From Desulfurococcaceae archaeon (lineage in GTDB: Archaea; Thermoproteota; Thermoprotei_A; Sulfolobales; Desulfurococcaceae), in assembly GCA_028275705.1 (NCBI GenBank), contig JAPWUD010000010.1:1-46652 (forward strand): a stretch of DNA of 46,652 nt, given 5' to 3'. The notes under the pieces are model-generated. The model ran no database searches, had not been told where the DNA came from, and worked only from the letters and a program-made list of their open reading frames with translations. This document shows, piece after piece, positions 14,505 through 35,062 of the stretch (its first letter is position 1; each line of letters starts with the position of its first letter). A program made the position numbers and the translations under genes.

Positions 14505-14513
14505 GTGGTTGGA

Positions 14514-15941
14514 GTGTGGAGTAAGAAGTTTAAGGTTAGGATTGGAGAAGTAGACTTGTACTTCGGCCCAGGAGTCCTCGTTGAAAACATCTCAAGAGCT
14601 CTAGAGGGGGTTAGTAAAGCAATGATTGTAACGTCTAGGAGTGCTGCAAAAGTATCTGGTGCTCTTAGAGATGTTGTTAGTGCTCTAGGGAAATCTTCAA
14701 TAGAGTATAGAGTGTATGATAAAGTAACACCAAATCCATCTACGAGTATAGTGGATGAGTTACTAGAGGAAGTAGAGGTGTTTAATCCAAGTGCGTTAAT
14801 AGCTATTGGTGGGGGGAGCGTTATAGACACTGCTAAACTAGCCTCAATACTATATGGATCAGGGTTGAAGACCATAGACTACATACTCGGGGCTAAACCA
14901 GGGTTTCCCCGAGGCAATCTTTTGAATATTTCTAAATATTTTTTTGCCTCGGGGTTCCCGGGCTCCGTTCGGGTTTTCATTGCATCACAGCCCGGGCTAT
15001 CAGGGCTCCACATAACCCAAAAGCCCCTCATCCGCATTGAAGACAATAACTCAAGCTCCAAAACTCATCATCCACAAGAAAATACACGTAGGGAGATTAA
15101 TAAATATAAGCCAGCTACTCATAGTTATTCACAACCAATCACAACTATTTTTAGATCGGTCACAGGCTCAAAGGGGTTAAAATTAGTAGCTGTGAATTTA
15201 ACCCACGGCACTGGATCCGAAGTAGATAGATTCGCAGTTGTTACTATATCGGGGACTATTGAGAAGAAAGGCATGGCGGTGAGATACCCAGACATTAGCT
15301 TCGACGACCCAGTTTATACCTTAACTCTCAGTCGTGATCAAACCTTGTATACGTCAATAGATGCATTCTACCACGCATATGAGTCTGCAACATCAAATAG
15401 AAGTAATTTACTTGTATTGAGTCTAGCCGAGGAGTCTGTGAAACATATAACAATGTATCTCCGGAGGGTGCTTGAAAACCCAAAGGATCTAGAGGCTAGA
15501 ACAATGCTACTATACTCATCAATGCTAGCCGGTATATGCATTGATACTACGAGTGGAACACACCTAATCCACGCTCTCGAACATGGGTTTAGTGGATTTA
15601 AACCCGAATTACCACACGGTGCTGGCCTAGCTATTCTTGGTCCACGAATAGTCTACTATACTCACAAAGCTGTACCCGAGCAATCTGCAAGGATTTTGAA
15701 GCACATTGATCCATCTATAAAGCCAATCAGCGGTGATGCCGATAAAGCAATGAAGGCAGTGAAGGAATTCCAGGATAATCATGGCTTCAACAAGAGACTA
15801 AGCGACTACGGTATAGCAGTATCTGACTTAAAGCAAATACTAGACTTTGTTGAGAAAACAATAATGGAGAGGTTTGGATCAAACACACCATTCCCCGTGG
15901 ATAGGGGTTTACTGGAGGAAGTAGTTAGAGAAGCACTTTAG
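14514..15941 (+). CDS. Iron-containing alcohol dehydrogenase carrying a 90-codon in-frame insertion
   Basis: 475 residues as it stands; without the insertion it would be about 385, normal for the family. GGGSVIDTAK near residue 101 binds NAD(P). HGTGSEVDR, the SIDAFYHAYES segment (Asp and His), LEHGFSG and LPHGAG supply the expected metal ligands. Between LGAKP and KGLKLVAVNL sits an element (14900-15169) that is exactly 270 nt and has no stop in this frame. AGGTGG precedes GTG 14514 by 5 nt. The insertion lies after the nucleotide-binding region and before the metal-binding half, so it may be tolerated as a loop, or the enzyme may be dead. The substrate is unknown. Confidence 0.85.
   Translation: MWSKKFKVRIGEVDLYFGPGVLVENISRALEGVSKAMIVTSRSAAKVSGALRDVVSALGKSSIEYRVYDKVTPNPSTSIVDELLEEVEVFNPSALIAIGGGSVIDTAKLASILYGSGLKTIDYILGAKPGFPRGNLLNISKYFFASGFPGSVRVFIASQPGLSGLHITQKPLIRIEDNNSSSKTHHPQENTRREINKYKPATHSYSQPITTIFRSVTGSKGLKLVAVNLTHGTGSEVDRFAVVTISGTIEKKGMAVRYPDISFDDPVYTLTLSRDQTLYTSIDAFYHAYESATSNRSNLLVLSLAEESVKHITMYLRRVLENPKDLEARTMLLYSSMLAGICIDTTSGTHLIHALEHGFSGFKPELPHGAGLAILGPRIVYYTHKAVPEQSARILKHIDPSIKPISGDADKAMKAVKEFQDNHGFNKRLSDYGIAVSDLKQILDFVEKTIMERFGSNTPFPVDRGLLEEVVREAL
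14900..15169 (-). mobile_element. Structured insertion element, copy A (inside the alcohol dehydrogenase gene)
   Basis: Homologous to the copy at 24305-24585 in opposite orientation. From the left it has AGGGTTT, a hairpin with arms CCCCGAGGCA (14907-14916) and TGCCTCGGGG (14945-14954), a GC-rich core with CCCGGGC/GCCCGGG pairing to about 15045, then an AT-rich tail ending GGTCACAGGCT. The core differs from copy B at only three or four positions by eye, while the hairpin loop differs in length (28 against 40 nt). No target duplication is seen. Hairpin end, folded core and lack of duplication fit a non-autonomous IS200/IS605-type unit; this is inference. Orientation is given so that the hairpin is the right end. 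Confidence 0.75.
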
Positions 15942-24304: not shown

Positions 24305-24585
24305 AGCCTGTGACCGATCTATAATTAGTTGTGATTAATTGTGGATAGCTGTGATTAGTTGGCTTGGATTTATTAACCTCTCCACGTGTACTTTGTTGTG
24401 GATGATGAGTCTTGGGACATAAGTTACTGTCTCCAATGCGGATGAGGGGCTTTTGGGTTATGTGGAGCCCTGATAGCCCGGGCAGTGATGCGATGAAAAC
24501 CCGAACGGAGCCCGGGAACCCCGAGGCAGAGAAATATTCAAAAGTATTCACAGCTAATTACAAACAATTGCCTCGGGGAAACCCT
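24305..24585 (+). mobile_element. Structured insertion element, copy B (in the leader of a small gene)
   Basis: Homologue of 14900-15169 in the opposite orientation. On this strand it begins AGCCTGTGACC, has an AT-rich part with AATTA/TAATT and repeated GTGATTA words, then the GC-rich core (about 24425-24520) and a terminal hairpin with arms CCCCGAGGCA (24519-24528) and TGCCTCGGGG (24569-24578), ending AAACCCT. A frame through the core reads AMKTRTEPGNPEA in both copies, which might be the tail of a transposon protein such as TnpB; this is a guess. No target duplication or transposase is seen. Confidence 0.72.
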
Positions 24586-31236: not shown

Positions 31237-31692
31237 TTGAAGACACGCATGCGTGGTATTGAGCCAATAATAGCAGTAGTGATCCTAGTAGCAGTAACAC
31301 TAGTAATAGCAATAGGAGTAATAGGCTGGATCATGGGATGGTGGGGAACAATGGGAGCAACAGAATCACTACAATTATATCCAGACAGCTACGCTATACA
31401 GAGTGATAACAATGCCGTTGTAGTACTACACATTAAGAATACTGGTTCAGCGCCTGCAGTAATATACAAATTCGAACTGTTGGGAGTGGGGACACCTACA
31501 TCAGCTATGGTTAGTACTACTTTGGCTGGGACCATTACGACTTCAGGTGCAGAAGTCACAATAAATCCAGGTGCTGAAGGCTATATTAACTTCATAATTA
31601 GCGGAACAGTAACCGCTGGTACAAACTATCAGATCAAAGTATATACAAGAGCTGGTAATGTATACACGTGGACTGTACAAGCGAAGGCATAA
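31237..31692 (+). CDS. Archaeal type IV pilin-like protein
   Basis: 151 residues. The N-terminus MRGIEPIIAVVILVAVTLVIAIG is the class III signal and hydrophobic helix of archaeal pilins: a short basic leader, glycine at the cleavage site, then the assembly helix. Prepilin peptidase (17383-18189) would cut after the glycine. The C-terminal domain is beta-rich, with VLHIKNTGSAPAVIYKFEL and the terminal KVYTRAGNVYTWTVQAKA. A truncated relative lies at 34823-35062. The protein has few lysines and many Thr/Ser/Asn, compatible with glycosylation. TTG 31237 or ATG 31249 may be the start. Confidence 0.82.
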   Translation: MKTRMRGIEPIIAVVILVAVTLVIAIGVIGWIMGWWGTMGATESLQLYPDSYAIQSDNNAVVVLHIKNTGSAPAVIYKFELLGVGTPTSAMVSTTLAGTITTSGAEVTINPGAEGYINFIISGTVTAGTNYQIKVYTRAGNVYTWTVQAKA

Positions 31693-34822: not shown

Positions 34823-35062
34823 TTACTTAGCTTGCACAGTCACCGAGTAGACATTACCAGCCCTATTATAAACCTTAACTACGCAGTTAGAACCAGCCCT
34901 GTAATCCTTTGATAATGATATTTGTAGAGTGTCTTCAGTGCTCGGTCCCATAGTGCGAGCTGATATTTTATTACCTACACCCTTAAAGTTTGAGGTATCA
35001 GTAAGCGTTTCTATTCCCGAAATCTCTATTTTATACATTACTGCTGACGCTGACCCGGTGTT
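34823..35062 (-). pseudogene. Truncated pilin gene: C-terminal domain only
   Basis: Minus-strand reading from 35062 gives NTGSASAVMYKIEISGIE, paralleling KNTGSAPAVIYKFELLGVG of the intact pilin, and ends KVYNRAGNVYSVTVQAK, paralleling KVYTRAGNVYTWTVQAKA. The signal peptide and assembly helix are absent; a stop codon (35063-35065) directly precedes. ATG 35038 could start a 71-residue product, but it would not be a pilin. It may be a decayed paralogue or a donor cassette for recombination with the intact gene 3 kb away. Confidence 0.7.

Follow-up and report, generated by a model that had tools for sequence, protein, structure and literature searches.

A gene for iron-containing alcohol dehydrogenase (Fe-ADH) in a hot-spring archaeon, a relative of Thermosphaera, is interrupted by an internally deleted derivative of a TnpB-only transposon (IS1341-type, IS200/IS605), i.e. 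a PATE. We consider it likely that this element inserted into the Fe-ADH gene, that its frame was opened by a deletion, and that the product is tolerated as a loop of 88 residues. Rickettsia provides the best-known examples of mobile repeats that lie in frame within proteins.

The insert in the Fe-ADH gene

The DNA analyzed here (the window, 46,652 nucleotides) comes from a 42-contig draft genome of 1.47 Mb (G000), whose named relatives are metagenome-assembled. The features are listed in Table 1. The host open reading frame was identified as a single Fe-ADH by its Pfam matches (PF00465 and PF25137), and the conserved metal-site residues and the fold agree with this assignment. As the initial annotation had it, the foreign segment lies in frame in an alcohol dehydrogenase gene, here one Fe-ADH ORF of 478 codons, and contains no stop in the host frame. 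Outside the insert there is no stop or frameshift either, and the metal ligands are kept. The length given there, exactly 90 codons (270 nt), was not confirmed, because comparison with the uninterrupted orthologue (L031 = L073, 390 versus 478 codons) gives 88 codons (264 nt). The empty site in the sister genome G004 consists of GCTAAACCAGG directly followed by CTCAAAGGGG, and the nucleotide identity is 94% on each side. In the protein, the split point is LGAKPG/SKGLKL. The insertion had thus been correctly placed in the dehydrogenase, but the bounds first drawn, between LGAKP and KGLKLVAVNL, took in two host codons. The junction slides by 4 nt (CAGG), which can be assigned to either side; the element was placed at 14901–15164 because the position of the target motif (AGCC) is known from other copies.

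Alignment of the dehydrogenases of relatives also bore out the expectation of a clean insertion. The site is uninterrupted in the sister, and the 19 homologues in the alignment (A2) all lack an insert there, which marks the insertion as derived in this lineage. The orthologue is present in all eight genomes of the genus. Its closest named relative is that of Thermosphaera sp. isolate Bin P8, for which the ADH comparison gives the same values as for the sister genome G004. The ADH match in the relative G002 (L037, C58:22849-24015) contains one TAA. At a similar locus (L078), a stop is located at residue 3 of the ADH match, and the TAA of L037 therefore probably precedes the true start codon.

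Table 1. Positions of the Fe-ADH gene, the mini element and its parts in the window
Feature	Position	Strand	Remarks
Fe-ADH gene with insert	14505..15941	+	478 codons, uninterrupted frame
Mini TnpB element (PATE), 264 nt	14901..15164	-	Antisense to Fe-ADH; empty site in L031, family alignment, table of copy ends and targets
Guide-RNA (omegaRNA)-like scaffold; tail with homology to the 3' end of tnpB and the right end in full-length elements	14901..15035	-	
Terminal hairpin CCCCGAGGCA / TGCCTCGGGG	14907..14954	-	Helix 2, 91% of cells paired
12-nt deletion, private to the ADH copy	site 14924..14925	.	Takes away the codon at which most other mini copies have a stop
Second hairpin CCCGGGC / GCCCGGG	14957..14996	-	Helix 1, 96% paired, 22 cells changed on both sides
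TATA-like sequence that may be a promoter directed at the scaffold	15098..15112	-	Inferred from the alignment only
Target or transposon-adjacent motif AGCC (GGCT on +), tnpB 5' end	15165..15168	-	Table of copy ends and targets
Second mini copy	24305..24584	-	Homologous frame contains an in-frame TAA; no conserved host gene recognized

Parent transposon and target motif

The element has 18 matches in its own genome, the best non-self match having an E value of about 1e-92, and a chance origin is excluded by this degree of similarity. These matches and the empty site in the sister support the first impression of a mobile sequence and not an enzyme domain. The homologous element noticed elsewhere in the window (24305-24584, minus strand) is 84% identical to the ADH insert. 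Seven mini copies are present in the genome, along with at least four full-length copies; four full-length relatives are 1.37–1.53 kb long (~1.4 kb), with TnpB encoded on the opposite strand. The parent TnpB scores above the cut-off for the profiles PF07282 and TIGR01766 and below that for NF040570, and its matches to solved TnpB and Cas12f structures are weak. Two of the four full-length copies have lesions, one with tnpB split over two frames and one with an altered left end.

The mini copies are without the tnpB gene; what they retain is the 3' tail of tnpB, the right end, and some 45–60 bases of the left end. These ends are common to the full-length tnpB-bearing elements of the same genome. 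In the tnpB orientation, the copies read 5'-TGTGACCGATCT...GGGGAAACCC-3' with few changes. They are inserted 3' of a fixed short motif without target duplication, with an ambiguity of 1 nt in the livM case described below and 4 nt in ADH. The motif 5' of the copies is AGCC in 20 of 22 and GGCC in 2 of 22, a count made without L046, the row end of which was mis-trimmed. Of the two ends, the right one has clear subterminal hairpins, with compensatory changes; no such hairpin could be demonstrated at the left. In a family-wide search of 40 genomes, clear mini copies were found only in this genus and one further genus.

The genome encodes one intact and one partial Y1 TnpA. The ends of the mini element were not found on the resident TnpA elements, whose ends differ. 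In a resident TnpA/TnpB element (L096), AAAGCC directly precedes the hairpin upstream of tnpA and resembles the AGCC target; the remaining end sequences of this element are unlike those of the mini family.

Several repeats were observed besides these copies. In one mini copy (L047, G003 C47:17624-17882), the segment in the hairpin loop has the opposite orientation to that of the other copies, as though the palindrome had turned over. Another repeat of ~224 nt adjoins the mini copy L029 (reverse strand, about 1078-1301) and occurs in many copies in G000 (C24, C5, C40, C25, C7, C30, and C26) and some in G002, G004, and G005; it is absent from the window. An inverted 72-nt pair in the window (31615-31686 and 34826-34897, 72% complementary) looks like a coding motif common to two genes on opposite strands, not a mobile repeat.

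Opening of the frame and a second in-frame case

In the mini copies, the frame that runs antisense to tnpB frequently comes close to being open. W2, L028, and L029 each have a single stop in the ADH frame, and its position is shared by all three. A stop occupies this codon in most other mini copies too; L045 and the full-length elements read TGG. The 12-nt deletion of the ADH copy is located in the hairpin loop on a codon boundary and removes this usual stop codon, and therefore the dehydrogenase frame is open. When the 11 end-to-end mini copies were read in six frames, only 2 of the 66 copy-by-frame combinations were translatable, those of the ADH copy and L045, and both sit in frame in conserved genes. 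In neutral simulations of W2, L028, or L029, which used assumed rates and serve only as a guide, the frame opened in 6–9% of runs without the deletion and 34–67% with it. Other genic copies (e.g. L027, L029, and L030) would disrupt their frames. The search for empty sites of L029 and L030 in the genus found flanks without full orthologues, which makes the count of disrupted genic copies uncertain. In two further places (G005 C3:20066-20221 and G004 C12:5098-5250), long open frames (300 and 245 aa) continue into the right end of a full-length element, again in that antisense frame, which may lengthen these host genes by about 50 codons at the C-terminus.

The second translatable copy, L045, is a stop-free mini copy of 270 nt in G004, near the N-terminus of a gene for a LivM-like permease in a liv-type ABC transporter operon (the liv and livM names were assigned by reading translations). 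It has the same phase as the ADH insert and leaves a 426-codon frame without a stop. The livM site is empty in G000, and this empty site fits insertion of L045 directly after GCC. Since ADH is empty in G004 and livM is empty in G000, each sister has an in-frame insert at the empty site of the other, and at the sequence level the livM insertion is independent of the ADH case. The two insert peptides are 76% identical. There are thus reciprocal in-frame inserts in two sister archaeal species with a defined parent transposon, from which insertion, stop loss, and tolerance can be read step by step.

Alternatively, the insert could be lost from the product, through splicing of the transcript or as an intein. 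The first and last residues of the insert are not of the intein type. No intron was matched in Rfam at three loci with E values up to 1, and no obvious bulge-helix-bulge, the mark of an archaeal intron, was seen by eye at the junctions in the predicted fold of the sense strand. A precedent exists in the IStrons, IS200/IS605 elements that are spliced from host transcripts with a group I intron and are in frame in more than half of the intragenic cases (PMC4227781), but most of them begin with a stop codon (PMC4227781), and the ADH insert has none. Both the intein and the spliced intron were rejected on anatomy, and we regard removal by either route as extremely unlikely.

Structure model and selection

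The AlphaFold2 model (20 sequences) retains an intact Fe-ADH fold at high pLDDT, with residues 134–222 below 50. The predicted loop is located between a short surface helix and the strand preceding the THGTGSE motif. Compared with solved Fe-ADHs, the TM-score by target length reaches 0.93 (1o2d). The D and H residues that the ADH alignment shows as conserved at the metal site occur in this protein too; in the Fe-ADH family, such residues serve as metal ligands. The insert thus probably forms a disordered surface loop in the model, which makes the extra loop envisaged in the initial annotation plausible.

The pairwise dN/dS of ADH against the sister is 0.17. The changes assigned to each ADH branch are 14 nonsynonymous and 14 synonymous for this genome, and 10 and 21 for the sister. 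By these comparisons the gene is under constraint overall, a constraint that is not datable relative to the insertion; given the branch counts, mild relaxation or recent loss of function is possible. A codon-level test of the insert peptide detected no constraint on its amino acids (pairwise omega of 0.6–1.9 in its frame), and the peptide is therefore read as tolerated, not functional.

These values bear on two other interpretations. The ADH gene could be a recent pseudogene that was inactivated by the insertion, in which the open frame is due to chance and too young to have decayed. That the insertion postdates divergence from the sister, that the insert peptide is without constraint, and that this ADH branch has a slight nonsynonymous excess all fit such a gene. 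An open in-frame copy is, however, unlikely to arise by chance (2/66 combinations, both in conserved genes), and livM provides a second in-frame case. The rest of ADH is free of stops and frameshifts, its metal ligands are present, and the gene is retained in 8/8 genomes. On balance, a pseudogene is unlikely. Co-option of the insert peptide for a function such as regulation or binding in the host proteins is very improbable: related peptides do occur in two unrelated host proteins, but a common peptide follows from common DNA, its codon positions are not constrained, and the model predicts it to be disordered. A tolerated loop in an enzyme is the interpretation that we prefer.

Right-end hairpins and a putative guide

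In an alignment of 23 right ends, 93% of the cells in the two helices are paired. In most full-length elements, the second hairpin reads CCCCCGC / GCGGGGG, a compensated form. Two pairs are C-G in one copy type and G-C in the other, giving 22 cells changed on both sides, compared with a mean of 12 in shuffles. The swap divides the copies into two groups and thus may reflect one or a few events; the paired change between the groups of aligned copies is nonetheless a compensation. An Rfam scan for known guide-RNA families or introns returned a single match, a tRNA.

Next to AGCC in the empty G004 allele, 20 bases match the flank of the element perfectly. A 20-base match beside AGCC is what a TnpB guide would need (PMC8612924), and the flank is a putative guide, as read from the sequence. 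The mini transposon might consist of a guide RNA only, borrowing the resident TnpB in trans, with an antisense guide that carries ADH sequence beside AGCC. We think this distinctly unlikely. If it were true, TnpB would cut insert-free alleles and drive the insertion through the population, and the translatable frame would let the element sit harmlessly inside conserved proteins. As the inserts retain a guide-RNA-like scaffold, a testable question is whether mini elements without TnpB rely on TnpB in trans for their persistence in genes.

Proposed course of events

Here, we propose a course of events for the tolerated insert. A PATE, which would have been mobilized by a Y1 transposase acting in trans, landed 3' of AGCC on the antisense strand of the Fe-ADH gene, with no target duplication required. 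By parsimony, this insertion followed the split of the lineage from the sister species. The 12-nt deletion in the hairpin loop, seen in the sequence, removed the single usual stop, resulting in an ADH with a predicted unstructured loop of 88 residues. Translation most likely runs through the whole gene, and the enzyme is probably still active. Such insertions may survive because a useful gene tolerates a copy only if it can be translated. In the sister, the same happened to livM independently, as its sequence shows.

Comparison with known systems

The family resembles the PATEs of Haloquadratum walsbyi, which are short, have no terminal inverted repeats, and have near-terminal palindromes (PMC3119063). 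Some of them were derived from IS605/IS1341-type elements by core deletion, and they have a specific target of 4–5 bases at the 5' end (PMC3119063). In-frame retention inside proteins is not described in the available part of that paper (PMC3119063), whereas the present family includes two in-frame cases with empty sites and keeps a guide-RNA-like scaffold with compensatory changes. A PATE-like element of about 271 nt in Halanaerobium hydrogeniformans has nearly the same architecture, with a short left end, the last part of tnpB, and a right end of about 160 nt (PMC7290912). It is a single copy and bacterial, however, and the available portion of the text does not describe a host frame (PMC7290912). 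The RNA of ISDra2 TnpB is formed from the tnpB 3' end and the right end, with the guide from the flank and the motif at the left end (PMC8612924). The present family, with its putative guide, differs in having AGCC instead of the TTGAT of ISDra2 (PMC8612924) and mini copies without tnpB.

The palindromic elements of Rickettsia, about 150 bp in length, are bacterial mobile repeats that are also kept in frame inside protein genes, and the review describing them makes no link to TnpB (PMC10969869). The ADH insert may be likened to them by behavior alone; the analogy drawn in the initial annotation holds to this extent, but the origin does not, as the insert is a TnpB-derived IS200/IS605 PATE, a parentage that argues against membership in the Rickettsia elements. 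QMITEs of Coxiella burnetii are MITEs that are sometimes in frame within ORFs (PMC5896051); they represent another type of MITE in another host, and IS605 is not mentioned in the paper (PMC5896051). IStrons are likewise IS200/IS605 elements tolerated within genes, but they splice by a group I intron (PMC4227781), and no such intron was matched in the ADH insert in the Rfam scan of three loci. A limited search of the open-access literature turned up no account of archaeal proteins that retain an IS200/IS605-derived PATE in frame. Palindromic elements retained in frame (Rickettsia and Coxiella) and in-frame IStrons that are spliced were already known, and the archaeal in-frame PATE is a new variant of this theme.
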